A DNA stretch of 64,000 nt from Bryoerythrophyllum caledonicum (Eukaryota; Streptophyta; Bryopsida; Pottiales; Pottiaceae), in the NCBI GenBank assembly GCA_963971425.1, contig OZ020522.1:4810168-4874167 (forward strand), written 5' to 3'. A program made the position numbers and the translations under genes. This document shows, piece by piece, positions 6,362 through 64,000 of this stretch. Position 1 is the first letter of the stretch. Each line of letters begins with the position of its first letter. Under the pieces are notes generated by a model. It searched no databases, was not told the origin of the DNA, and saw nothing but the letters and a program-made list of their open reading frames with translations.

Positions 6362-11401
<5,040 letters not shown>

Positions 11402-12978: not shown

Positions 12979-15934
12979 ATGGCCGCCGCCGTAGGCCAAG
13001 TCCGATGCCAACGGATCGGCTGTGACGCCGCCTTCACGCCCGCCAACAACCTCGACGACTCGTGCACTTATCACTCCGGGGTAAGCAATCCACTCCTTCC
13101 TCGAGTGATGTTTAGGTGATGTGTGGAGATGTCGACAGCAATGTACAGTAGTCGAATCCGGGACTTTGATCAAAACCGGTGGAGCTTCTTCTGGTTGTTG
13201 TTTTAGTTTTCATGAGTCGAGTGCCTTCGAAAATCTGATGATTCAGCTCTGGCAAAGCAGTGGTGAGAGAATCGGTGTGTTGATTTACTTTGACATTGCG
13301 TTGATTCGGGATTTCGAGTATCAGGTGGATATTTTTTGGAAATTTATTGTTAATAGATCATAGAAAAACGTGAGAGCTTAGTGCCTCGTACTCGTGATTG
13401 CATTACAAAGCTTGTAATTTAGCTCACATGTATAATTCTCGAGAAAGTCTTTCCGAAGAGACATTCAAATACCGCACAGCTTGAAAATTGTTTTGTTATG
13501 GAGCTGTTGGAAGGATTTTCTCCTAGTTTCGCAAATGACTTGACTTTGGATTGATGTCTTGGTGCATTGGTACTGACGTATCGGCTTTTTGTGTGTTTTC
13601 CCTGGCGATGGATTCTGTTCTGGGACGTGTTCGATCGGACAGGCGGTAAGACTCTTTTCTTTGATTAAGTGTGCGTGTAGTTCTTTATGTTTGATCTCTG
13701 AAGGGATCAGTAAGAAATTGGTTTGTTTAGTTTTTTGTTTCGTTGTTCATTTAATGGTTAAGGGTTGTCACCATGTAGGTTTTTCTGTGTGTGTCGAGTT
13801 GCTGAGATGAGCTTGGTTTGTGCAGCCTTTGTTTCACGATGGCAGAAAGGAGTGGAGTTGCTGCAAGCAGCGCAGCCATGATTTTAGCGACTTTTTGAGC
13901 TTACCAGGGTATGCTCTCTAGGCTGTCATAACACTCTAGAACAAACCAGTGCTAGAACGGCCTTACGTTTAAGTCTTTGAGGGGGAGAATTGCTAAAACT
14001 ACTTGAAACAAACTGGAAGAAGCTAATGTAAATGAACTAAGCGACCATCCAAAAAGAAGAAATAGATGTGTGTCACTAATGGCCCATTCAAAAAGGAAGA
14101 AACGATAAGGACCAAGTGTCAAATATGGGCTTCTTGAAAGTTTGGTCAGGTTTGAATGGTGTCAATTTATTACAGTTCTCTTTGAATTTTTTACAGTGGA
14201 TGGGCATTACTAAAACCTCAGTGAAAACAATTGTTTCCTAAATGTGACATTTGGTGAAAAAAGTTCTTGGGTTTTGAATTTCAAACGGGGAGAGCGGGCA
14301 CATTGGGCACCTCCAAAAACATTTGCTAGGACACTATTGAATGTGAAATTTCAATACTAGCAAGCAACATTATTTCTTTTCATATTGTAAAAAAAAGTTC
14401 TTCCTTTTAGTGGAAAGTAGCATATAAACCCAAGTCAAACATTTTCACACATTGTCGGACAAGGTACCAAAAAAACTTCTTCTTTTCCACTTGAAACTTA
14501 GAGATCTTTATATTTTTTACTTTTTATTTTTTCGACAACAATAGGTGGTGTGAACCTTCTTATTGGCCATTTGGATTATTGATCTAAAACATGTTCAGTT
14601 CACAAAGAATTAAAACGTGAATTGGCAATTTTTGAACCTCCACTCCTTGTACAATTGTTCTAAATATGTTACACCCCTTCTCTACCTCTGAATATTGGTG
14701 CATGAGGAACTAGCATCATGCTTAACATGATGGTAATGGATTTAGACCTTGTGTAGTGCAAAAATTTGACACCAAGTGAAGGCAATCCCCTAATCCATCA
14801 ACGTAGGGGAAAAAATGAACCATTTTCTTGACTTCAAACACCATAATCTTTTAATCTGTACGGTCAAAGTTTATGAAATCTTATGCGTATGTCACTTAAT
14901 TGAGGTCCTATGGTCAAAACTAGAAATATAAGTTCTTGTTTCCTTCCTCATTGCACTAAAATCAACAAGTTTTTAAGTGTTTTTGGTGTGAAACTGTCAC
15001 GGTCCTTTAGGGGTAATCACAGTAACAGTCAACGGTGACTCCAACAACTCAAGAGGCCGCTGTAGAATGTAATGTGAGCGACGAAGCGCAATCTTGTTGT
15101 TTTATTGATCTATCGAAGTAGAGAATTTTAGACACATTGAGTTGGCACTTGATGACCAGTCATTTATGTTTTGATATTTGGAATTAGCTTAGCTACAGCG
15201 CAAGCTGATTAGTCGCATGTGGGCTTTACATAGATGCACAAAGGGCAAACATTCCTCTGAGAAGCCCCTAGCTAAGGCAGCTCCAAGTCCTAATGCCAAC
15301 CAGCCCGTGCAGATGGCTAAGACTGGTAATGCTGCTCTAGACTCAGCAAAAGCCGCATGTGGACGATGTCGCCAAGGATTCTTCTGCTCCGAACATGGTC
15401 AGTTTCTTTTCCCCTGCTTAGATTTGGTTACTCCATAAAGTGATGTAAGTTTTTCACTCTTGAACTGCTTGAAAAGAATCAACACTAGTCAGATTATATT
15501 TTCTCTTTGATCCTACAGGTGCTCCCAAACCGGCAGCAGCAGCTACTGTCAGGCCTAATCCGTCTCCTGCACAAGTTCAAGTTCCCCAAAGTGCAGAACC
15601 AGTAAAGAAGAGTGCACCCGTCAAGGTGATGGATATAAATGCCCAGCAAGTCTGTAAGCGCAAAGGGTGTGGCCACACTTTCACAGAGAAGGACAACCAC
15701 GACAGTGCGTGTAGTTACCACCCTGGCCCTGCTGTATTTCACGACCGCCTCAGAGGGGTATGTTTCTTTCCCAAACCATCTTGTTCGATTTTTAGCTTCA
15801 CCCCTGTTTCCTTAACTGAATCTTGTTTTGGCTTCCTGCAGTGGAAATGCTGCGATGTTCACGTGAAGGAATTCGACGAGTTTCTGGAAATACCTCCCTG
15901 CACCAAAGGCTGGCATGATGCAAATCCAGAGTAG
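12979..15934 (+). CDS. RAR1: RAR1, CHORD-domain co-chaperone of plant immunity
   Basis: Five exons (12979-13080, 13826-13908, 15234-15397, 15519-15757, 15842-15934) give 226 residues, the same length as Arabidopsis RAR1. CHORD-I (about residues 10-68) reads [34 protein letters not shown]. The plant-specific CCCH spacer motif is intact (Cys104, Cys107, Cys113, His116). CHORD-II (about 162-221) begins [15 protein letters not shown] and contains [15 protein letters not shown]. Both zinc-binding CHORDs keep their Cys/His sets. RAR1 acts with SGT1 and HSP90 to stabilise NLR immune receptors in the cytosol and nucleus. Intron 2 (13909-15233) carries a piggyBac-like repeat. The stop codon lies 150 bp from that of the convergent downstream gene. 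Confidence 0.97.
14107..15013. mobile_element. piggyBac-like repeat in RAR1 intron 2
   Basis: The right end reads GGTCCTTTAGGGG, as in the TTAA-flanked copy at 28411-29335, and the inside shares long stretches with that copy and with 19775-20715 (for example CAAACATTTTCACACATTGT and GAACCTCCACTCCTTG). The left end is diverged, so its position is approximate; the TTAA is lost on the right (TAAT). Confidence 0.7.
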
Positions 15935-37398: not shown

Positions 37399-37971
37399 CA
37401 GTCGATGTTACAGTCTCCAGAGCTTCAGGATTGGCACTTTCAGCTTCATTACGAAGAGTCCTTGTTGGTATCCACACTGTAATCTACTCCGACTCCACTT
37501 TCGCATTCTACCTGCTCACATTTTTCGCAATGTTGGAGGTTTTAGGACAGATTCTTTGTCAAATGTTTGGTTTGAGCTTCTCACAGGAGCTGTATTTTAT
37601 GAGGAAAAGTCTTCATTGTTCCATTTTCATTATATCAACCTGGTGTTTAAACCTTATACCTGTCTCATTGATTGAATCCAAGCCGGAAGTGACAACAAAA
37701 ATCTCACACGCTTCTCAAAATCTGGAATTGTCGTGTGCAAGTACCTGTGTAGCTTGCATGCTACTTCAAGTAGAGCTTGACAGAAGTTTCCTTCGCTCCT
37801 CGTCATAAAATTTCAATGTCTGGCAAACGCAAAGTTCCTTGGCAGAGATGGCGCTCGTCAAAGATGTGCAGTATCATGTGCAAAACGTCGTGAGCGCTTC
37901 CTTTGAGAGGATACTAACATGGACGTGTGTGCTGTCCGAAGCGAACGCGTATCCACGCCTGGTTAGTCACG

Positions 37972-38367
37972 ATGGCTGCACCAATCATGAACTGTTGCAA
38001 GTCTAATTTGATGCTCCAAAAAGTATTATCGGTAGTCAGGAAATTGCAGGATGCTAACGTTCATGTGAGCTTGAGGGGCTTCTTGCAGACCCTGCCGTCG
38101 TGGTTCGTGCGGCAGCACGGCTATCAAATGCGACTGTCTGCCACGATTCGAACCGCCGCGGCGCGGTCGAGAGAGGAGCAATGGACTGTGCAGATCGTCG
38201 TGCGAAACCCAGAGAAGAATCCGCAGCTCATGTTCTACGGCGGCGGATGGAAAAACTTCGCGGCGCGCCTCGGCCTTGCGGGAGGCGACCGGCTCCAGTT
38301 CACGCTCACGGCCAATAAAGAATTTCTACTAGTTCCTTACCTGTTCATCTTCTTCACACCAGTCTAA
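37972..38367 (+). pseudogene. B3-domain fragment
   Basis: An open frame carries a near-complete B3 DNA-binding domain: LPSWFVRQHGYQMRLSA, then WTVQIVV, GGGWKNFAARLGLAGGDR and LQFTLTANKEF. No second B3 domain or linker follows. The frame leaves the domain at about 38325, exactly where the tandem-duplicated block begins, so the gene was probably cut by that event. A likely acceptor (TTCTTGCAG) precedes the domain at about 38087, so the true first exon may lie upstream. It could still be expressed as a short single-B3 protein. Confidence 0.6.
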
Positions 38368-40329: not shown

Positions 40330-41708
40330 ATGCCTGTAAAGTCAGAGCCAGTAGTTGACGATGGACCAAGGGCTGGAAACAACGACAACAAGAAGACACC
40401 GCCATGGCACGACAACAAAGACGCATTGCTTCACAGGTTGCAGAAGAGCGTTCATTTCGTGAAGACGATGACCCCATCCAACGTCGACGGGAGTTACACA
40501 GTGGTACGTTGCACGCTTATGCAGATTATGGCATTCGTTTAGCTACAGTTCCATCTCCTTGACTCTCGAGCACTGTGCAGGCGATTCCGACCTGGTTCGT
40601 GTGGAAGCACGGCGACAAGTTCGAGCAGAAGATTTTCCTGCAATCAGGAATATCGCCGGTCACAAAGCCATGGCGTGTGCGGCTCTCTCTTTGCAAGCCG
40701 GCGCATGCACCATCACCCGAGGTCAAACTCGGCAGCGGATGGCGTGATTTTGCGGTGGTCCACGGCTTGGCCGAGGGCGACAATCTGCTGTTCTCGCTTC
40801 GTGCAATGTCGGAATTCGATGTGTACGTCTTCCGCAAACCAGCTCCACCACGAAAACGGTCTCGGGGTTTCGACGAGCAAGTACCGGTACGAAAGACCGG
40901 TGAATGCAGTTCGGGACACTCCGACGAAGGATTGTCAGAAGTGTCTACGACGACAAAGAAGCCGAACATTAGAGAAGACAATGGTCCGATCTTTGCTTTC
41001 CGCGGCCGCTCCATGCCCGGCACACGCACTTCCTCCTTCGGCTTGCACTATCTCGACTCGGTAAGCATAGCACTAGTTCTCTGGACTCCACAATGTGTTC
41101 ACCATATGAAAAGCAATTTTGCAATGTATTAAGGACCAAGAGATTTCGCGATGTAAGAATCGTACTGACGAATAGAAGCTTCCCTTGTGGCAGCGCGATC
41201 TGCAAGAGCCTCCACGTCTCTGCTCCGACGTCTCGCAGCACCGCCAAGAGTCTCCAATCCGCGAGCGGAAGAGCGATGAAAACCCAAAGGCCGTGAAGGA
41301 GAAGGCGGAGACGAAGACGACGTCGCCTCCTAGCTTTCGCAAGCGACTGACAGCACGCAACGTCTGCACAGGCGCAAGTAGCTTGGTAAGCCACTTCCTC
41401 TTCCTCATCAGGACACAAATTAGGCAAACTCGTAATTGTGATTTCTCCAATTGCAGGAGATTCCCAGCTGTTTTTGGAAGAGCGCGTACGCCGAGGGCCT
41501 TCACCCCCCCATAGTGAAACTGCAGGGGATCCATGAGCGCAGTCTGGAGCGCATCGTGGTGTGCAAGCGGTGTAAGACGGGGGAGCAATCCAGGCTCTAC
41601 CTCACGGACGGATGGCGCGAGTTCGCAGACGAGAACGTGTTCAAGGTCGGAGAAGAGCTCGTCTTTACTCTCACCGCCGACTCCTTCCTTGTCGTCCGAG
41701 CTGCTTGA
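40330..41708 (+). CDS. REM-like protein with two B3 domains
   Basis: Four exons (40330-40503, 40581-41060, 41176-41385, 41457-41708) all in phase 0 give 371 residues. B3 domain 1 (about residues 59-145): IPTWFVWKHGDKFEQKIFL ... WRVRLSL ... GSGWRDFAVVHGLAEGDNLL ... DVYVF. The linker is basic and Ser-rich. B3 domain 2 (about 289-371): EIPSCFWKSAYAEGLHPP ... RIVVCK ... LTDGWREFADENVFKVGEEL ... LVFTL. Two B3 domains around a charged linker recall plant REM-type transcription factors, which bind DNA in the nucleus; targets are unknown. This is the intact member of a small local cluster. The start ATG is the first in frame and follows a leader with stops. Confidence 0.85.
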
Positions 41709-51185: not shown

Positions 51186-51640
51186 GCGCAGAACATTTGG
51201 GGTCGGGCGCATACCAATCTAGACCGGGCGCGTTCATGCAGGGCCGCGCGCGTACCGCTCAGGGCCGGGTGCGTGCATATCAGGGTCGGGCGTATACCAC
51301 TCTGGGCCGGGCACGTACCCCTCAAGGCCGGGCGCGTACCCCTTAAGGCCGAGCACGTGCAAATCAAGGTCGAGCGCGTACGCGTCAGGGCCGGGCGCGT
51401 ACCACTCAGGGTTGGGCGCGTACGCGTCAAGGCCGGGCACGTACCACTCAGGGTCGGGCGCGTGCATATCAGGGTCGGGCGCGTACCCCTCAAAACCGGG
51501 CGCGTGCATATCAGGGCCGGGCGCGTACCGTCAAGGTCGGGCGCATACTGTTACGGGCCGGGGGCGCAACGTTACGGGCCTGGCGCGTACCGTTGTGGGT
51601 CGCGCGCGCACCTGCCTATCGGGCGCGCGTAGTTAGGGGT
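51186..51640. repeat. 21-bp GC-rich minisatellite, about 20 copies
   Basis: The unit GGGCCGGGCGCGTACCACTC plus A is 21 bp. Because 21 is divisible by three, the array is open in several frames on both strands (for example GRARTTQ repeats). It lies inside the hAT-like element. The open frames need not be translated. Confidence 0.9.
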
Positions 51641-51904
51641 TGGTCGCGCGCGCTTGTGGGGAGCGTTTGTGCCTTTTAAGGGCTGAGGTAGAAAGAATTT
51701 GAAAGAATACAATTGTACAAGGGTGGTCCAACCTTAAAATTATTTATTTCAATGTGGTGCCTTCATGAATGGGCACTCTCAACTCCAAATACATATTTTA
51801 AGCCACGGTACTATTGTACCATGCAATCACCACACCACTAAATGTAGTTTTAACTTGTAGTACCTTCGTGTCCGCATATGGTTCTTTTATAGTGCTGGAG
51901 CCGG

Positions 51905-52220
51905 AGCATCTGGGGCCGGGCGCGCACAAGGGGGACTGCGCGCGTACTCTATGTGGTCGGGCGCGCACGCGGTGAGGCCGAGCGCGCACAATGTGGGGCC
52001 GTGCACGTACTCTATGTGGCTGGGCGTGCACGTAGTGGGCCAAATGCGCACGGGCCTGAGCGCGTACGCGAGAGGGCTACGCGCCTACATGAGAGGGTTG
52101 CGCGCGTACGCGAGAGGGCTGTGCGCGTATGCAGGGGGACTGCGCGCGGTTGCGATGAGGCTGCACGCATACAAGATGGGGCTGCGCGCGTACGCGACGG
52201 GGCTGGTTCTGGCGCGTTCG
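51905..52220. repeat. Second 21-bp minisatellite block
   Basis: Related 21-bp units of the form GAGAGGGTTGCGCGCGTACGC; same element, 265 bp after the first block. Confidence 0.85.
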
Positions 52221-52229
52221 AGCAGGGTC

Positions 52230-53385
52230 CGGCGTACACATTTCTGGATCAAGCACCTACCTAGTGGAGAGAACTTGACATACGCTAATTTCCAAAATTC
52301 CATTTCCGACATGTAGAAATGCCAATGTCAACTTCAATCAAGTTTACATGATGGGTCATCTACATAAAATTACTAATTTGCAATTTCCATGAATTCTATA
52401 AAAGTAAAAATTGCATAAAGTGGGTAGATTGGGTTTGTATATGGCAATTTTTTTCTGTGTTACAATATATTACTACAATTTTGGCACTATTACAATTTAG
52501 TGAATTTATTTGGTTGGCTCAAATGATTTGACTTCTATCTTCCAGAAATCTATGAGCATGTACTAAAAATTTGATTTACGTACAAAAAAATCATAAACAA
52601 TCCAATATTTTGAAATGTTCAAGGAAAGTAGTCAAACACTATAATGTTTTAAAAACATCTTCTAAAAATGTTATTAACACAATACTTATACCTACTTAAT
52701 CATTTTTTGGGGAGAGTTAGTACCTTCAATTAGCATGGGAAATGATTTGTATGGCAAACTTATACTCATATTAAGATAAAATATGGATAATTTGTATGGT
52801 AGAATGCCATCTCTTATCATTATGGAAGGCCGTTGCAATTGGTTACATATAATTCAACCAAGAATAATAATGTTGCATTAATATCGGGGATTTTGTTACA
52901 TCCCACATCATTTATTATGCAAGTAAGTAACATGATTTTTATTGTTTAGTCTTATGATTCACATGTTTGAGACAAAAGTTTAAGTTTTATTCTTCAACAC
53001 ATGATATAAATTCCACTACAAAAAAATTCTCGATGATACTATAGACTATTGTAGTCGGTTTTCAAATATTAGACAAAAGTGATTTTAATTTATTGACTAG
53101 AGTGCATGAAGTTGTACAATCATGGAAGATCATATTACATTCATCAAATATTTAATTTAAACGTATACAAGACTGTACATAACATTCACTTTATTACATT
53201 GTACAAATTCAAAAACATGCTGAACCATACAAACTTGATTAACGTCAGAGATAAACAACATTGTTTTGAACTAAAGCCATTTACAAATGAAGTGCAATTT
53301 ACAAAATTCACAAGGTCTATGATTTCAAAATGTTACAAAATTGCCCGTTTATCATTCATGGCACTACTTCCATTGCTATCAAATT
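52230..53385. other. AT-rich interior of the hAT-like element
   Basis: No gene or repeat with a recognisable end is seen. Confidence 0.5.
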
Positions 53386-55145: not shown

Positions 55146-56030
55146 CAGAGCAAAAAACTACTACATGCCATCTGAATTGCCCTCGCTTCCAATACCTACA
55201 TCTGCCTCTACATCTAGAAATCGTAAATCGCCTTTGTCATATTTATGCCGCTGACGTTTTGGAAGTGGAAATTTTATGGTTGATTGAATTTCCACAACTT
55301 CCTTAGCCCAGACAGATAGAGAAAAGGTAGAAGTTGGAGATAACGCCAGTATGCATATTGGTAGAACTCTATAGAGGAATATAAACACAGTGAAATCTCA
55401 TTAAACAATGATGATGTACATATCATTGATAACAACTTCGAAATCAATAAATAGAGTTAAACTTACTCACATGAAGGTATGCGGTAGCTCTTCTGCTTCT
55501 TCTGAGGTGGTTCTCCTTGCGTACGTCACACGTTCTTCCTCTTCTCTTGTACCAATTCCGCACTTGGTTTCTATGATTGAATTCTTCCTCTTCTCCAATA
55601 CCGATTCCGCAGTTGGTTTCTATGATTGAATTCTTCCTCTTCTCCAATACCAATTCCGCAGTTGGTTTCTACCGCTAATTGAAACCAGTATATATTCAAT
55701 CATATATTAAAATTAGCGATGCCAATAGTGATCGAGAAATCTCTGAATCTTCTTCAAAGGCCAATATGTGTTGTCCAATTGACTGGCACACCCAAATAGT
55801 TGAACCTAAAATAGTACAAATTTGCCATGGAAATGATTCATTATAATTTATGAGAGTGGAAAATGAAAAATAGAAGTATAGAATGAAATAAAAGAAATTA
55901 TTACCCGTAGATGCATTCCAATCCAAAACAATATCCCCAACTTCTGTAAGGAATTCAAGAACAATCTTCATAAGATCGATTGCTTTCCCTGGAGCCCCTT
56001 CCTAAAGTGCACTGCCATGCATAAGTTGTG
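55146..56030 (-). pseudogene. Fragment resembling an amino (N6/N4) DNA methyltransferase
   Basis: On the minus strand from about 56005, EGAPGKAIDLMKIVLEFLTE followed by VGDIVLDWNASTG, then (after a putative intron with GTAATA...TTTTAG borders, about 55907-55812) STIWVCQSIGQHILAFEED. The order resembles the HPTxKPxxLxxxLI - pGDxVLDxFxGSGTT - lgRxxxgxExd arrangement at the C-terminus of beta-class amino DNA methyltransferases. The catalytic DPPY part is not seen, and in-frame stops lie upstream. A last open stretch (55388-55161, KEVVEIQSTIKFPLPKRQRH) may be its C-terminus. It lies directly downstream of the minus-strand gag. Function is probably lost; the assignment is by motif only. Confidence 0.45.
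55515..55672. repeat. 49-bp tandem repeat, about 3 copies
   Basis: TTGGTTTCTATGATTGAATT ... TTCCGCAG recurs with a 49-bp period (anchors 55564, 55613, 55662). The period is not a multiple of three, so it does not encode a peptide repeat. Confidence 0.9.
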
Positions 56031-56302: not shown

Positions 56303-57413
56303 CTATTTCTTTAGTTTTAGACATTGGAGGGAACACTTGCAAGTGTTTTCTCTTTGTATTGCAGGTTTGCGACTCGGGCCACCCACTACAGGCGCGTGCC
56401 AATAGCTCTGATTGCTTTTCCATTCTACTTTTATGGACTTGGGAGCGTCGATCAATATCGTGACCTTGAAGTCAGTGGCCTCGGACACGCCCAACGCTCT
56501 ATCAAGCGCTTCCACCTCGGCAAACGCCTGAGCCAAACTGGCGTTGCCGTGATAATCAAAATGAAGATGGGAGGTGATCAAGTCCACCATCCTCTTGTCC
56601 AACTTGCACATAAAAATCTTCACAAGTTGGCGGTTCGTGAAGACATCACATGCGTCCGCCGCCAACCGCGCCAATCGGGTATACATAGTGTGCGGCGTGT
56701 CCTCCTGTTCACGACAGAAATCCTAGATGCGCTGCATCTAATCACGCCGGAATCCCTTATACTCCATCTCCAAATGCGCCATGAACAACGTAAGAGGGTC
56801 AAAGACTGGTGGCGGACCGACGGCCACCAATGCCGCCCGCGTGGCCTGGGCCAAACGCGACATGGCCCCCATGCCAGACGCCTCATCTACAAGGGCAATG
56901 CCCTTTTGCCTGGAATCCTCCTTGGTTTGATCGATAAAGGCCGGGACACAAGCAACAACACTCTCCTTAAGCGCAGTCACCAGCTCCATCCGGTCGCGCC
57001 AGTAATCCTCAACCGGACGCAACTCTTCCGCATGCTGTACCGACTACCTTTCATAGGTCTGGAGCACCTCCAGCTCCAATTGTTGGAGCAAAAGCTCAAA
57101 AGTGCACCAGTTGTTGAAAGACGGTGAACGCTGGTGCTTCTCCTTCATCTATGTCTAGAAACGGAGCCGCCAATCGGGTAGGGAGATGCCCTCAACCTGA
57201 CCTGAGAAACGATCACGCACAACCTGGCGGTGATCGTCCTCCATGTCGTCAAATGCGTCGACATTCCAAGCTCAAATTCCTACGGTCGGTATCCAACACC
57301 GAAATAGGCTCAAAAGCCTTGACGGTATCCGACCCTGGCCCAAAGTCTGAAGCCGGTGCACTCTTCGGAGAATCTGGTGAGGGAAAATAATATCGACTTC
57401 TCGTACTCACCAT
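56303..57413 (-). pseudogene. Ty3/gypsy gag-like region, minus strand
   Basis: Starts with an ATG at 57413-57411 (MVSTRSRYYFPSPDSPKSAP), a typical gag opening, and continues in several frames through EDYWRDRMELVTALKE and DPLTLFMAHLEMEYKGFRRD to the capsid-like part MYTRLARLAADACDVFTNRQ ... LVKIFMCKLDKRMVDLI ... ASLAQAFAEVEALDRAL. In-frame stops and shifts (for example near 57245 and 56741) show it is dead. It ends before any zinc knuckle. The pol half of a gypsy element starts 323 bp away but on the opposite strand, so gag and pol are head-to-head. Confidence 0.75.
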
Positions 57414-57735
57414 AAACAAAATCCCCCGGGTAACTATCTACGGATGTTATCTAAAGGGTAAGGGTAAGGACGGGCAACCTACACCTGCAAAATCACTAAG
57501 CTATGTGTTTTACCGGTCATCACCTCCGGCTAACACAGGTCCAACCACATCCCCCCACATAAAAAGCTCTTGCTGGTTTTGAACCCGACTTCACCCCTAC
57601 GGTACCCTATTTCAATCTAGTACAACAGGAAATGGGGCCACCGGAAAACACCGCCAACAAGCCCACAATACGGGGGACGTACCGCACAAGAATTCAAAAA
57701 TCAAAACCGGATCCTCTTCTCTAACAACAAAAAGC

Positions 57736-58700
57736 TTGCTATTGTGGCGAGTAGCTTGGCGGAAGCACAACCTGAAAAAGGTTGTGCATTGCTGGGCTTG
57801 TGGAAAACCCGGCCACACCAAAGGGGACCCAAACTATTCCAAGAAAAAGGGGGCAGAGAAGGGGAAGGTGAAGCCCAAGATTGGGGCGGCCAAGTCTGGT
57901 GAGAAGATTGCGGGCAAGGGAAAGAAGCCGGTTACTTGTTCTCACTATGGCAAGTCCGACCATAGAGATGAGAACTGCTTTGTTCTCCACCCGGTGAAGC
58001 GGCCGGGTTCATCACGGGAGAAGGACTTGGAGGCCAAAGTGGCGGAGTTGGAGAAGTGCGAATGCTTCTTTGGAACAAGTGGTGGACGCACGGGCTCCAG
58101 TGAAGAGTCGTGGTTCGCCCTCAGCCATGGATGCCTATTTGTATGGCGCTTTCGGAGAGGTTGTGGCTGCAGTTGCCACTCGTGCTCGGACCACTGTTTA
58201 GGCAGTGCCACCATCATCCAGTGTGCCGGGAACTAGTGGTCGTCCACGCCACGTGGGATTACCGGACCACATCGGCCAGTCGCGGCTACCGCTGTCTTTT
58301 GATAATGCAGATGCGGCTGCTCTTGGTGCCGCTCCTCCTGGTGCCGCTCCTCCTTTGACTATCTTACCACCAATTTTTTCCACTCATGTGGATGTCGTAG
58401 ATTCCTTGGCGTACAAGGTGTTGCGGTTGCTAGTGTTTGCCGGTATGGACTTTCTAACACCGGATTTTCAACTATCCGGTGTATTCCATTTGGCAGGTAG
58501 TATGTTGGAAGGCAAGGTGCCGATGCCATCGTAGGAGGTGTCGCAGGTAGTGACACCTCCATCCACTGAGGAGGATTTGGTGGCAATGCGGGCCAAGTTG
58601 GCAGCGGAGGCTATTTCCGTGTTTGAGGCCAATGCGACTTCCACACTTACAAAGCAGTCCTCCGGGAATCAGTTTTTGATCTCTGGAGTGGCTATTTGTC
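57736..58700 (+). pseudogene. Zinc-knuckle and linker region of the gypsy element
   Basis: Two CCHC-like knuckles: CWACGKPGHTKGD (last Cys replaced by Asp) and CSHYGKSDHRDENC (second Cys replaced by Tyr). The region between and after is Lys-rich, then Pro/Ala-rich with GAAPPGAAPP. Frames shift near 58080 and 58205; a TAG interrupts at 58532-58534. In Ty3/gypsy elements the knuckles belong to the nucleocapsid end of gag and bind the RNA. Confidence 0.75.
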
Positions 58701-59165
58701 TGACATTGCGGCCCGGTCTGCACGGGAGCGGCGCGGTGTGCGTCCAGGGGTGGTACGTTTGGTAAATGATGACGGTGTCATGGTGGTTGGTCGTACGGAC
58801 GACAACTCCACCCGAGCTACCCACCTTCGTGTTATGTTGGACTGTGGAGCTCAGCCAATGATGATTGGCAAACAGCTAGCCTAAGATTTGGATCTAGGTA
58901 CTTCGGACCTCGAGCCTTGCCCATTCAGATTGTTACATCAATGGGGGGCACAGAGAAGGCGATGGGCTACACTCGACATCCGTTGCAGTTGATGTTGGAC
59001 GTGGAATCTGGTCCTTCATTCTCTCAAGTATCTCTCCAGTGTGCATTGACTGGCGCCACCAACTACGACATTTTGGTGGGTCAGTAGACACTTTATCCCC
59101 TCGATTTTGGGGTGGATAACTGGACGGAGGAGGCTTGGATTAGGCCTGGGTGGTCTATCGGTGAT
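58696..59165 (+). pseudogene. Aspartic protease region
   Basis: LRVMLDCGAQPMMIGKQLA carries the active-site block with Asp-Cys-Gly in place of the usual Asp-Ser/Thr-Gly. After a TAA (58882-58884) and a shift near 58922 the domain continues VTSMGGTEKAMGYTRHPL and ALTGATNYDILVGQ, then TAG (59085-59087) and LDFGVDNWTEEAWIRPGW. The enzyme would cleave the gag-pol polyprotein. Confidence 0.75.
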
Positions 59166-59506
59166 GGCAGAAAGGAACTCATTCTGGTTGTCTTCGCAGC
59201 TAGCGTAGTGACTTCCACGGCGGATGCAATGTTTGGTGGAGTACTTTGCCATACGGTTTGCCATGTAGTTCTACTCTTTTGGAGGAGACATATGCTTTTA
59301 TGTCAAGGGTAACGAAATCACATGAGCATAGATCAATAATGATCCCTGCACGTCATTGCAAGGATCCCCTTCCTCCATGGGAAACTCAGTTGGAGCTCAC
59401 ACGTCGCAGTCGGGAGATTGTGGAGGCTATAGATGCTTTCCACCTTTCAATGGACTCTTCCACTCCGTTGTTGGCTCGCACTATTCAATGGCGACCACCG
59501 GATTAG

Positions 59507-60480
59507 GGTATTAACCTTGTGGAGCTATTTGCCGGTATCAGTACGAGGCTTGCGGCTGTGTTAGAGGCCGAGCTCAAGGTACGACGGTATATCCACGCGG
59601 ATAGTGGCTTTGCAGCCAACTGTGCCACTCACCATCACATTCAACGTCTTCTGGCGTTGTATCCGGAGTAATTACTACCTTCTGCAATTTGAGGGTGTTT
59701 TGGCAAGTTGCCACGTGATGTGACGTTGATCAGTGAGGATGATCTTGGCCGGTTAGGTCACGTGGACTTGGTGATTTCCGGATGGCCTTGCCAAGGCCAT
59801 TCACGAGCGGGCATGGACGTGGCTTGGATGATCCACGGTCCGATCTCTTTGCAGATTTGCTCAGGCTCATCCAATGGTGGATTATCCACCAATCCACACC
59901 ACCAGGGTACATTTTTGAGAATGTACCCCCATTGGGAGATACACGGACAAAGGTGCGTGAGGATGGGACGTACATCCATCACCTTCTTGGTCCCGCCCGT
60001 TTGTTGATGCCAGAGCGTTGGGATCTTACGCCCATCGGCCACATTGAATTTGGACCAACATGGCATCATCGGCAACGCTCACCTCTGCACTTGTTCAAGT
60101 GCAACGGCCTGTGCGTCGTGAGATCAATGACATCTTCGACGACCACCGTGTTTCCGCGGAGGTTACGAAGGATGATGAGCAACCATTGGCGGTGGTCAAC
60201 CACGTTGGTTTCACTCGGGGAGCATTTCCCACCTTGATGTGCTATCCGGGCTCTTTTGCCTTTAGGACACGTGGTCCGGGCATGGTTTGGGATTCTACTT
60301 CCCAAACTTACAAGGAGCCTTCTGCCCATGAGAGAGAGCGGGCGATGGGCTTTTTGACAGGCACCACCGCCGCACCGGATCTCTTTGAGGGCCAACGTCG
60401 ATATTTGTTGAGTCAAGCCATTGACCTCAACACCCTTGTTTGGGTTTGTGGCCTTTGTTTTGCCGTTCAGCGCCGTTTGA
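59507..60480 (+). pseudogene. C5 cytosine DNA methyltransferase domain inside pol
   Basis: Motif I: NLVELFAGIST (SAM binding), starting directly after an in-frame TAG (59504-59506). Motif IV: VISGWPCQGHSRAG, with the catalytic Cys codon at 59789-59791 in the same frame. After a frameshift near 59825, DDPRSDLFADLLRLIQWW and motif VI GYIFENVPP. The C-terminal part (60060-60470) holds FPTLMCYPGSFAFR, HERERAMGFLTGTT and RRYLLSQAIDLNTLVWV, matching motifs IX-X. Further stops: TAA 59669-59671, TGA 59690-59692. The enzyme would transfer a methyl group from SAM to C5 of cytosine, plausibly on the element's own cDNA. This copy is inactive as sequenced. Confidence 0.9.
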
Positions 60481-60769
60481 GTGACAATCCATGTGTGTTG
60501 GGGGCAAACTCTGATGGTCAAGGGACAACGGTGCCACATCTTACAGAGATCGAGGAAGTGGAGATGCTTTTTCATTTAAAGAGTCATGGAGCTGAGGAGC
60601 TTCGTGCTCAGTGTGTCTTTGTAGCCTTGGCCGAGGACTTTGGTGTAGAGGATGCTCGGGATATCTTTTCCCAGCTTTATCATCACGACGCGGGATTTTA
60701 TGTGGACCCCGTGAGTGAGGAGTCTGGAGGCATTAATGTCCCTCTGCTACCAAGTAGCAATCACCGGTT

Positions 60770-61895
60770 GTGCCGGTATGCGGTGAGTCTTCTACGGTGG
60801 AGAAGGAGACTACAGAGTTTGATGATTTGCCTTTGGATTTGAGGCCACATCTTACCAGTGCCGAGGCATGGAAGGTACGAGCGTTTATACATTCGTATCG
60901 TAGTAGTTTTGCCTTTAGTCTCCATGATTTGGAAGGCTACAGAGGCAAACCGATTCACATTCAGTTGGAGGATGACCACCCGATCTTCCGACGACCGTAT
61001 AGGCTTAGTCTTTCTGAGAAAGTTGGTGTTCAGACTCGTTGTCAGGAGTTGTTGGACGCCACCTTGATTGAGCTCTCCAACGGCGAGTTTGCTTGTGCCA
61101 CGGTGATGCCAATGAAGAAGGACATCTTTGGCAACAGGACGGAGAAGCGGATGTATGGGGATTATAGGCCGGTCAATCGTAAGACCAAGTCGGATCGGTA
61201 TCCCATGCCCACGCTAGAGGAGTTGTTTAATGCGGTGGGACACGCCAGAGTATTAAGTACTCTAGATTTACGGTCCGGTTACCACCAGTTACCATTGATG
61301 GTGGACGACCGGGTGAAGACCGCGTTTTGGGAAGTTGCTCTGGATGGGAGAGATCAGCTCTACCATTGGAAGTTTCTTCCATTTGGCCTCAGGAACGCAC
61401 CCGCCAAGTTTCAGGGTGATGGACCGGGTGTTGACCGGTTTACCGTTTGTCCAATGCTACATTGATGATGTTATCATTTTTAGTAGCAGCCCATAGGAGC
61501 ATGTGAGGCATCTTCAGGCGGTGTTCAAGAGGCTATGGCAGTGGAGATTGCGCTTGCACCATGGCAAATGTAAAATCTTCCATGACCGGTTGCCATACTT
61601 GGGACATATGATTGTTCTAGGAGGTCTTGGCGTGCAGTAGGCAAAGGTTGACGCGCTGCAGAAGATCCCGGCCCCAATCGACTTGTTAGAGCTCAGAGCT
61701 TTCCTTGGCCTGACGAATTACTATCGCCGGTTTATCAAGAACTTTAGCTTGATTGCCAAGTCATTGACTATCTTCACGAGGAAGGATCAACCATGGACTT
61801 GGGGACGGGAGCAGCAGCAGGCGTTTGCTAGTTTGAAGCTGAAGCTCGGTGTAGCGCCTGTACTACGGCGTCCACATGCTACACGGCCTTCCACT
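60770..61895 (+). pseudogene. Reverse transcriptase region
   Basis: Ty3/gypsy RT blocks: FRRPYRLSLSEKVGVQTRCQ, RMYGDYRPVNRKTKSDRYPM, STLDLRSGYHQLPL, WKFLPFGLRNAPAKFQ, then after a 1-bp shift near 61420 the catalytic YIDD (61458-61469). RFLGLTNYYRRF-type connection follows at 61683 on. In-frame stops TAG 61494-61496 and TAG 61638-61640 lie in one otherwise continuous frame. The enzyme would copy the element RNA into DNA. Confidence 0.92.
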
Positions 61896-62275
61896 TGCAC
61901 ACAGATTGGAGTGCGGTAGGATTCGGAGCCGTGTTGACTCAAAAGGATAATGAAAGACGGGAGTACGTTGTGGCGTTTGCTTCTAGGAGCAACAACAATG
62001 CGGAGTCCAACTATTCGTCCTATGAGAGAGAAGCTTTGGCCGCAGTTTGGGCCATAGCTCAATTTAGGCCCTATTTGTATGGGCAGCATTTTACCTTGGT
62101 GACCGACCACCAACTTTTGAAGTGACTCATGGAGTCAGACAAGCTCACTAGCAAGCTTGCCAGGTGGGCTCTGTTGCTTCAGGAGTATGACTTTGAGGTT
62201 GTACATCGGGTGGGCATCACGAACTTGGATGTGGATGGACTATCGCGTAATTCAAGTCCGTTAGAAGAGGATTTG
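61895..62275 (+). pseudogene. RNase H region
   Basis: HTDWSAVGFGAVLTQKD holds the first catalytic Asp, YSSYEREALAAVWA the Glu, LVTDHQLLK the second Asp and NLDVDGLSRN the last. A TGA (62123-62125) lies right after HQLLK. It would degrade the RNA strand during reverse transcription. Confidence 0.9.
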
Positions 62276-62559
62276 ACTAGTGCTAGATGGCATGGGGATT
62301 GTGATAAAATGGTGGTTCCGGGGTGGCATGCAGCGGCCTACCTCACTTTGATGTCTGGCTCAACGTCGACATTGCCTGATATGGCAGCAGATGAGGAACC
62401 AGACAAGGCCCAGGTTGTTAGCGACGTGTGTAAAGACATTTTAATCTTGCACAAGCTGCAACATGGCATACTTTCGCCCGCTCTTTCAGCCATGGAGCGC
62501 GACCGAGTTGGACACCAGATAGTGAGGTTTCGTTGGGAGAACGGCCTTCTATTTTGGTT

Positions 62560-63350
62560 GTTGCCGGATGGGACTAGGCGCATAGTTCCAAGACTGGATC
62601 AAAGGGCTTCGTTGGTACGGCAAGTACACGAAGACCTTGGACATTTTGAAGCGCGGCAGACTCATTCGATGTTGTACAACCAATATTGGTGGAATGGCAT
62701 GTATCAGCAGGTCGCCACGTACGTTTCATGGTGTGAAGTCTGTGATCGGGTCAAATCCAACTTCAACACCTTGTCACCACAGTTGCAGCCTTTGCCCATC
62801 ATGGGTTTGGGCTACTGTTGGTCTCCGGATTTTAACGAGCCGTTTGTTGTCACCCCACGTAGAGCCAAGTACGTGTTGGTGATGATGGAATACTTCAGCA
62901 AAGTGGATTGAGCTTGTGGCACTGCCACAAAACTCCTCGGAGTTGGCAGCCATGGCATTCCTTGACCGGGTGCTGGCTCGTTTTGGAGCCCCAGCTGAGG
63001 TGTTGACTGACCAACGGCGTGAGTTCCTTGGTGTTTTCGAGGCTTTGTGCACCAAAGCTTTGATTGACCACCTTACCACTTCTCGAGATCATCCGGAAGC
63101 AGACGTTTTGGCGGAACGTGTGGTTCAGATCGTCAAGCGTAGACTATGGAAGTATGGATTACTTCAGGGTGGCCACCGTGATTGGAATCTGATGATACCA
63201 TGGATTGCCATGGAATACCGGTTTAGCTGGCACGCTTCTTTGGCCGCTTTCAGTCCGTATCAGTTGTTGTACGGACGGGAGCCAATTCTACCTTGTTCTT
63301 TATGGGAGGAATTGGCCCCAGTTGTGGATTTGGATGATCCAGAGGTCTAG
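62560..63350 (+). pseudogene. Integrase region
   Basis: N-terminal zinc-binding HHCC: HEDLGHFEARQTHSMLYNQY ... CEVC. Catalytic core: first Asp in WSPDFNEPF, a frameshift near 62905, second Asp in VLTDQRREF and the Glu in EADVLAERVVQ; SRDHP precedes it, as in related elements. The C-terminal part YRFSWHASLAAFSPYQLLYG is typical. It ends at TAG 63348-63350. It would insert the cDNA into chromosomes. Confidence 0.9.
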
Positions 63351-63840
63351 ATCATGTGTCTGCATGATCAGGCGGAGTTCTTCAAGCGGGCAATGCCAAT
63401 GGCCATGGAGAATTTATCCACCGCTCATCATCTTGACACATTATGGTACGCTCCCATTCGCAGCAGCACTTAGCGACCTTAGTTGTGGCGTTTCTCCTCT
63501 AGAGAATATGTTTATTTGCAACGTGAGGCGCCTACGACGTTGGACGTCAAGGCCGGGCGCACCATTCTTCGTATGAAAGATGTGTTGCCCAGTGGCATCT
63601 TGTTGTTGGAAGGCAAAGATGGCCGGGAGTGTCAGGAGCACTCCAAAAATTGCACGCCCTACCATTTGCCCATTGATGGCTCCGTCCATCTTGAGTTGGC
63701 CGTTGTACCACAGGGTCTTCCATGTTTTGTGTGTGGTGAGAAGAAGGGTGCGGCTACCATGTTATTATGCGACCGTTGTCAGCGTGGATGGCATATGGCT
63801 TGCTTGACGCCGCCCCTCTCCACTCCACCACTTGGGGATT
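63351..63840 (+). pseudogene. Integrase tail with a PHD finger, truncated
   Basis: After the integrase core a tail (SGILLLEGKDGRECQEHSKN, then CTPYHLP) leads into LPCFVCGEKKGAATMLLCDRC followed by WHMACLTPPL: the first half of a PHD zinc finger (Cys-x2-Cys, Cys-x2-Cys, His-x2-Cys). The second zinc half is missing because a CACTA transposon begins at 63841. PHD fingers read histone H3 tails; at the integrase end such a reader could steer insertion, in the way chromodomains do in other gypsy elements. Confidence 0.8.
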
Positions 63841-64000
63841 CACTATAAGAAAACCCCGTTTTTGGTGATGTCTTCTACAGACGCAGAATCACTTCGGTGA
63901 TGTCTTCAAGACAAAGCAGGATGTCTAGCTAGACAGGAGTATGTCTTCTCCGTCTTTTGGGTACTGTAGCAACTTCGGTGGCATGAAGAGAGCCGTGTCT
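63841..64000. mobile_element. CACTA element, left end, runs out of the window
   Basis: Begins CACTATAAGAAAACCCCGTT, close to the mini-element end at 2177 (CACTATAAGAAACCCGTG). Subterminal repeats (GATGTCTTC, ACTTCGGTG) follow, as is usual in CACTA elements. The 3 bp before it are ATT; the matching copy lies outside the window. It is inserted in the PHD region of the retrotransposon. Confidence 0.85.

Follow-up and report, generated by a model that had tools for sequence, protein, structure and literature searches.

A DNMT3-like cytosine methyltransferase at the end of the Gag-protease reading frame of a decayed Ty3/gypsy retrotransposon

It is puzzling that mobile DNA should carry an enzyme of the very kind with which hosts silence it, and the question is raised by a locus in a 64-kb stretch of Bryoerythrophyllum caledonicum DNA (64,000 nucleotides, hereafter the window). 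Retrotransposons with a methyltransferase, including a gypsy element of Klebsormidium, were published in 2018 (de Mendoza et al., PMC5890265). The first-pass annotation of the window had placed a cytosine methyltransferase in a Ty3/gypsy pol at 59507..60480. The presence of such an enzyme within a Ty3/gypsy element is confirmed here, and the enzyme indeed lies between protease and reverse transcriptase (RT), in the same order as in relatives. The assignment to pol is refined: the domain sits at the end of a Gag-protease open reading frame (ORF), before a stop codon and outside the RT reading frame. Its extent, projected from an intact relative, becomes 59504-60449.

All four motifs quoted for the enzyme are present in the order originally given: motif I at 59519-59545, WPCQGHS at 59783-59803 (with the Pro-Cys at 59786-59791), FENVPP at 59914-59931 (with ENV at 59917-59925) and the motif IX/X sequence RERAMGFLTGTT at 60333-60368. 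They are spread over three frames because the window copy is broken. When the four pieces were scanned singly, PF00145 was matched weakly by two of them (E 0.0077 and 0.026, both short of the curated cut-off) and not at all by the others; PDB searches with single broken pieces returned nothing useful. The pieces joined with X matched this DNA_methylase family profile at E 4e-10, above the cut-off. A search of ~5.8 billion proteins with the X-joined query yielded 2883 candidates, of which 44 reached E<=0.001; the best five of these (P0001-P0005) are intact and 60-74% identical over 94-99% of the query. Matches of this strength are far beyond chance.

Profiles were built from 20 (A1) and 23 (A2) of these 44 proteins, and from six domains of the relocated type described below (A3). 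In one genome each of 84,980 prokaryote species, profile A1 found five loci, four in Streptomyces and one on a 9,285-base contig, L008, that is filed under a cyanobacterial (Synechococcales) metagenome bin. In its two long ORFs Pfam recognizes only domains of retroelements, methylases and PHD fingers, and both ends carry the same 127 bases, which lie within Gag, as expected of a multi-copy LTR element assembled as a circle. We infer that L008 is a eukaryotic contaminant in a bacterial bin. Another retroelement sequence filed as bacterial is P0002, named Candidatus Obscuribacterales.

ORF1 of L008 encodes Gag, a zinc knuckle, a protease (PF13650, E 7.8e-4, below the curated cut-off) and the methyltransferase in one ORF that ends with TAG; Gag itself begins at the opposite contig end. 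ORF2 follows directly after the TAG in the same frame and encodes RT, RNase H, integrase and a PHD finger. It follows from this anatomy that the methyltransferase ends ORF1 and is parted from RT by an in-frame TAG, which is kept in the window. The corresponding features of the window are as follows.

56434..57717, minus strand: leader and capsid part of Gag, in opposite orientation to the remainder of the element (blastn with L008)
57751..63824, plus strand: element body, colinear with L008 472-6560 (84.2% identity, 6107 columns)
57784..58002, plus strand: zinc-knuckle (CCHC-like) part of Gag (projected from L008 504-722)
58714..59072, plus strand: retroviral-type aspartic protease region (projected from L008 1443-1802)
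59504..60449, plus strand: DNMT3-like C5-cytosine methyltransferase, stops and frameshifts inside (motifs, Pfam and L008 projection)
60755..60757, plus strand: in-frame TAG closing ORF1, common to L008 (sequence; TAG-to-TAG alignment)
60758..60763, plus strand: CAATCA fitting the CAR-YYA readthrough consensus and start of ORF2 in the same frame (sequence)
61082..61652, plus strand: reverse transcriptase (PF00078, E 7.8e-10 for the piece 60758-61462; extent projected from L008)
61794..62194, plus strand: RNase H (projected from L008, where PF17917 has E 1.8e-38)
62564..63152, plus strand: integrase, H2C2 zinc finger and core (PF17921, E 2.9e-15; extent projected)
63711..63840, plus strand: C-terminal PHD finger, cut by the next insertion (PF00628, E 6.5e-9, profile positions 1-34 of 47)
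63841..64000, plus strand: CACTA-like DNA transposon end interrupting the PHD finger and running beyond the window (CACTATAAGAAAACC at 63841-63855)

As can be seen, one decayed Ty3/gypsy element occupies window positions 56434-63840; the 5′ part is inverted, and a CACTA-like transposon truncates the 3′ end. The body is colinear with L008 (84.6% identity over 6078 aligned bases in a second alignment) and the leader and early Gag match the opposite strand, which makes the window sequence one element with an inverted 5′ part. In blastn, L008 8415-9285 aligned to window 57619-56760 on the minus strand (74% identity), L008 13-450 aligned to 56874-56434, also on the minus strand (81%), and a further 45-base piece aligned at 57717-57673; the non-coding L008 region 6636-8360 had no blastn match in the window, and neither LTR ends nor a primer binding site were identified. 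The zinc knuckle was named from its cysteine-histidine pattern, as Pfam gave no match, and the integrase core of the window matches PF00665 (rve) at E 8e-5, below the curated cut-off. The order protease, RT, RNase H, integrase is that of Ty3/gypsy elements, the protease match being below the Pfam cut-off. The PHD finger is complete in L008 by Pfam. The interrupting sequence at 63841..64000 we take to be a CACTA element from its terminal motif. A 358-bp element at 2177-2534, with CACTATAAGAAACCC inverted ends and AAT on either side, has ends similar to the transposon end at 63841.

The window copy differs from L008 by 15 indels, 13 of which have a length that is not a multiple of three; a 54-base gap at the cut end is one of the other two. 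Besides the stop common to L008, there are 14 premature stops. The copy is dead and cannot make the methyltransferase. At codon positions 1, 2 and 3, the window copy differs from L008 by 7.6, 3.8 and 20.3% in the methyltransferase and by 6.3, 5.8 and 18.4% in RT; the corresponding values are 14.7, 9.7 and 19.4% for the linker before the methyltransferase and 18.6, 14.9 and 19.6% for the linker after it. The methyltransferase pattern is nearer to that of RT, RNase H and integrase than to that of the linkers. This pattern indicates that the methyltransferase was under protein-level selection before decay and for part of the time that separates the window copy from L008.

To which class does the enzyme belong? 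A profile of 20 relatives searched against PDB found DNMT3A first (4.8e-15), followed by DNMT3C and DNMT3B. DRM (8.5e-7), HaeIII/HhaI (~2e-6, the best bacterial match being 1.8e-6) and DNMT2 (3e-4) ranked lower, and neither DNMT1 nor CMT is named among the 49 PDB sequences matched at 1e-3. The best AlphaFold model of the L008 domain had a pLDDT of 73.7 and a pTM of 0.78 (the other four models had pLDDT 49-62). In a fold search with this model, the best 50 of 139 matches at E<=0.001 were all DNMT3 entries, and the DNMT3 matches listed had TM 0.57-0.64 by query length, rmsd 4.4-8.9 and 20-22% identity. In L008 and relatives, motifs I, IV (PC), VI (ENV), VIII and IX/X are in unrearranged order; since the circularly permuted order of DRM was not seen and the order runs from I to X, the enzyme is not a DRM. 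On profile and fold ranking, plant MET1 and CMT are rejected together with DRM. Judged by profiles, motif order and the modeled fold, the putative enzyme is DNMT3-like, closer to DNMT3 than to DRM, DNMT1, CMT, DNMT2 or bacterial enzymes.

The L008 methyltransferase region used as a query (7996 candidates sharing most words were scored) retrieved 29 proteins, five of them named Marchantia polymorpha. Zinc knuckle, protease and methyltransferase also lie in one ORF in P0045-P0053, P0055-P0057, P0059 and P0060, and such elements were found in Marchantia and in metagenome proteins. The idea that an ordinary host methyltransferase gene happens to stand beside an unrelated gypsy insertion could be entertained if the broken window copy is read alone. 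Yet ORF1 is continuous from zinc knuckle through protease to methyltransferase in L008 and in database proteins, and the methyltransferase tree groups the window with them. The intact Gag-protease-methyltransferase ORFs therefore rule out the host-gene reading, and chance neighborhood has a vanishingly small probability. The tree puts the window methyltransferase with retrotransposon enzymes, so that the grouping with a host gene that the first-pass annotation had named as a danger was looked for and not seen among DNMT3A pieces and bacterial or phage-contig outgroups, a set with no host DNMT3 of plants or algae.

A second query, the integrase-PHD end of L008, gave 214 proteins; the 120 listed include Haematococcus, Volvox, Tetrabaena, Pleodorina and Marchantia. 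Where the methyltransferase shares one fetched protein with RT or RNase H, it lies before RT in 4 and after RT/RNase H in 26, all 26 before integrase; the latter is the relocated type. In entries named Volvox reticuliferus, Tetrabaena and Pleodorina the domain precedes integrase, with no RT in the same protein. Among the gypsy polyproteins that end in a PHD finger and carry the methyltransferase between RNase H and integrase are P0071, P0073, P0101, P0112 and P0136. In the relocated group, Glu replaces the Pro of Pro-Cys in 18 of 34 near-complete domains, and P0114 and P0119 have lost the Cys. Profiles of both methyltransferase positions find DNMT3 first in PDB.

Quick trees with SH-aLRT support only were made for the methyltransferase and for RT-integrase. 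The RT-integrase tree, built from 45 proteins, separates 24 rows (relocated type in 22, domain lacking in two) from L008 and its relatives at support 100. The two without a methyltransferase in the relocated-type RT clade, P0183 and P0191, suggest methyltransferase loss. Database rows whose domain match fell short of 255 residues were not entered in the methyltransferase trees, nor were 42 of the 44 X-joined-query proteins, and the second of these trees also left out P0180, P0114, P0119, P0145 and P0086. The relocated type forms one group (support 91-92), and the window groups with L008 and six other ORF1 proteins (support 100). The union of the two methyltransferase positions in a single clade is unsupported (57 and 81), as are the deeper joins; the longest outgroup branches are those of DNMT3A (2.2-2.8) and L004 (2.4-2.5). 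The tree fits one capture with later relocation as well as two separate captures.

Viral and plasmid sequences were also searched. Among viral contigs there was no match with P0001 and none with L008 ORF2. Seven loci found there by profile A1 were all bacterial-type methyltransferases once translated, and 48 viral contigs with the 16-base junction pattern had no similarity to L008 proteins at E 1e-3 and are therefore chance occurrences. The plasmid search gave 15 records, and in the 10 listed the similarity to RT or transposase is distant. NZ_CP087956.1, filed as a 5.3-kb plasmid of a Wolbachia from Corcyra cephalonica, matches the gypsy ORF2 over 80% of length with 33% identity and may be insect DNA rather than a plasmid.

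How ORF2 is expressed is central to the role of the enzyme. The junction reads TAG CAA TCA in both L008 and the window. In these two related DNA sequences UAG-CAA-UCA fits CAR-YYA, and in L008 the downstream ORF is in frame and has no AUG of its own before RT. TMV and other plant viruses are described as following a six-base readthrough rule, CAR-YYA directly after UAG (PMC2194720, PMC2754532), and by the account in PMC2754532 a fraction of ribosomes passes such a stop in plants. L008 ORF2 has its first Met at residue 117, inside RT, which makes simple initiation unlikely there. We infer that readthrough of UAG-CAA-UCA would join ORF1 to ORF2.

The ends of related proteins were then compared; stops in relatives are read from protein ends, the junction DNA having been read in L008 and the window alone, which are themselves related. 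Protease and methyltransferase occur together in 27 proteins, L008 among them. In 22 of these the chain ends 80-190 residues past the methyltransferase without RT, four (P0042, P0043, P0064 and P0065) stop within the domain or shortly past it, and one, the Marchantia gene model P0066, continues into RT. Short endings of the kinds SATK, PSTD, SFSD, SSSN, PSTN and PSHN are present in 15 of the 22, again including L008; two Marchantia proteins have a common ending of their own and five differ (P0051, P0054, P0061, P0062 and P0069). Nine of the 15, when aligned with L008, have a common block (EELRAQRVFAALA or alike) and end <=~70 residues beyond it. In three other relatives (P0067, P0086 and P0145), methyltransferase and RT are in one chain without a stop.

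RNA folding was analyzed at the same junction. The 120 bases past the L008 stop fold strongly (z -4.4, a level reached by none of 200 shuffles; 300 shuffles gave z -5.5), and one of 163 L008 tiles is as low. The 120 bases past the window stop fold less strongly (z -1.4). RNA structure past the stop revealed no extra constraint in the window copy in this comparison of two sequences, with 37 of 40 pairs kept versus 36.9 expected if its substitutions fell at random.

Instead of UAG readthrough, ORF2 expression might depend on re-initiation or on a spliced or separate RNA. Three related ORF2 entries (P0074-P0076) are listed with a Met start near the junction, although bacterial-type gene callers accept GTG starts. 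An ORF2 relative has a transcriptome-derived entry (P0080), and P0066 joins ORF1 to RT within a gene model. The lack of a Met codon before RT in L008 speaks against such routes, and we regard them, taken together, as rather improbable though worth keeping in mind.

The element resembles KnitGypsy-Dnmt3 of Klebsormidium nitens, likewise a streptophyte gypsy element with an unrearranged Dnmt3-type enzyme under purifying selection (PMC5890265). The arrangements differ, when compared by description: the KnitGypsy-Dnmt3 enzyme is reported in the Pol polyprotein ORF (PMC5890265), and the enzyme studied here ends the Gag-protease ORF before a stop. A Pol ORF common to methyltransferase and RT was not found, as the in-frame TAG parts them in L008 and the window. 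In addition, the repeats of KnitGypsy-Dnmt3 are described as arranged as in DIRS, and the main text on that element has no mention of a PHD finger (PMC5890265); one ends the integrase here. SymbioDIRS-Dnmt3 and SymbioLINE-Dnmt of dinoflagellates are also retrotransposon-borne cytosine methyltransferases, but they belong to a tyrosine-recombinase DIRS and a LINE element, respectively, and not to Ty3/gypsy (PMC5890265). A 2025 paper places some DNMT3 members inside Copia- and DIRS-type retrotransposons (PMC12344493).

The precedent cited by the first-pass annotation, elements of charophytes and dinoflagellates able to methylate CG, was right as to the existence of methyltransferase retrotransposons and too broad as to activity. 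According to the 2018 report, CG methylation in yeast was found with the Symbiodinium DIRS enzymes only; no activity was detected with the Klebsormidium gypsy and Symbiodinium LINE enzymes, which the authors judged inconclusive (PMC5890265). The same report describes retrotransposition of elements without a methyltransferase in the same genomes (PMC5890265). According to a 2019 review, green algae and charophytes contain methylase-encoding Ty3/gypsy and DIRS elements, which land plants such as tracheophytes lack (PMC6338049). Gypsy elements of this kind do occur in Marchantia, which belongs to the land plants though not to the tracheophytes, and its entries extend the range given in that review to a liverwort.

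An in-frame stop between an early ORF and a later ORF in the same frame is likewise known from MuLV, Tca2 and SIRE1 (PMC2194720). Here a methyltransferase precedes the stop, and unlike the spacer and pseudoknot of MuLV, the six bases past the present stop fit the plant-virus CAR-YYA rule (PMC2194720). In the literature listings and main-text passages searched (mostly open-access) we found no report of Gag-side placement, of a PHD tail on such an element or of a Marchantia methyltransferase-gypsy. Chromoviruses are gypsy elements with a chromodomain at the integrase end; a chromatin-reading module is at the integrase C-terminus in both, a PHD finger here replacing the chromodomain. The methyltransferase-carrying gypsy element is already known, and Gag-side placement with a PHD tail is a variant of it.

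What could the element gain from the enzyme? The best explanation as a whole, to which we give an even chance of being right, is a self-methylating element with a Gag-protease-DNMT3-like methyltransferase ORF1, a leaky UAG and an RT-RNase H-integrase-PHD ORF2. The methyltransferase would be made with every full Gag-protease chain, and RT and integrase would come solely from ribosomes reading through UAG-CAA-UCA; with RT and integrase so limited, the particle would take up the methyltransferase in excess over RT. In such elements the protease cleaves Gag and Pol into their parts, and here it would free the methyltransferase, which could then modify CG sites of the double-stranded cDNA of its own element, either ahead of integration or shortly after it. 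The best-scoring solved PHDs for the PHD finger of the element include Cph2, CHD4, PHF12, UHRF1 and KDM5. PHD fingers of the CHD4, UHRF1 and KDM5 kind read the H3 tail, and the PHD tail of the integrase may steer insertion by reading the histone H3 tail. A new insertion would then start out resembling methylated, silent host DNA. A bolder version, which we hold with more doubt than belief, is a split DNMT3 system in one old green-lineage family: a writer overproduced on the Gag side of the leaky stop and an H3-reading PHD on integrase would provide methylation of own cDNA and insertion at a matching histone state, the writer having been relocated, in either direction, between the before-RT and RNase H/integrase sites.

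The enzyme might also act in trans, on host chromatin or other copies, surplus Gag-protease-methyltransferase silencing the family and limiting host damage so that the element persists cheaply. ORF1 alone can encode the enzyme without RT, and slowed retrotransposition is among the options discussed in the 2018 report (PMC5890265). The window has kept 196 of 348 CpG sites of L008 compared with 303 of 426 GpC sites, a hint, no more, that the dead copy may have been methylated. Fewer CpG than GpC sites are expected if dead copies are methylated, but host methylation alone would give the same CpG decay, and selection for self-restraint is hard to maintain; we consider trans silencing unlikely. Still less probable, in our judgment, is that the domain persists because it binds nucleic acids or nucleosomes within the particle, or acts on RNA, with DNA methylation secondary. 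The inconclusive yeast results with the Klebsormidium gypsy and Symbiodinium LINE enzymes leave room for this (PMC5890265), and P0119 (named Tetrabaena socialis) and P0114 retain the domain without the catalytic Cys and Glu. Both residues are, however, kept in 72 of 76 near-complete relatives; among those of the ORF1 or methyltransferase-only group the count is 37 of 38.

Self-methylation of the element's own cDNA is retained as a hypothesis and as the preferred reading. The intact two-ORF relative, the Marchantia gene models and a placement that would yield the enzyme in excess over RT make it testable in a tractable land plant, and the two enzyme positions in otherwise similar PHD-tailed elements would be a natural experiment on the life-cycle step that needs the enzyme.

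The rest of the 64-kb window contained no tRNA and no Rfam match at the gathering threshold. Seven of ten window ORFs scanned for host-type genes had a Pfam match; host-type gene pieces lie at 648-1226 (DUF7869), 7072-11398 (GH31 glycosidase), 15473-15931 (CHORD), and 37918-38364 and 40563-41129 (two B3 domains). Of these, the B3, CHORD and GH31 pieces are of plant type. Tandem repeats are present as arrays of a diverged 21-base G+C-rich unit at 51201-52257 and as three 49-base copies at 55533-55679, the second 90% and the third 80% like the first.
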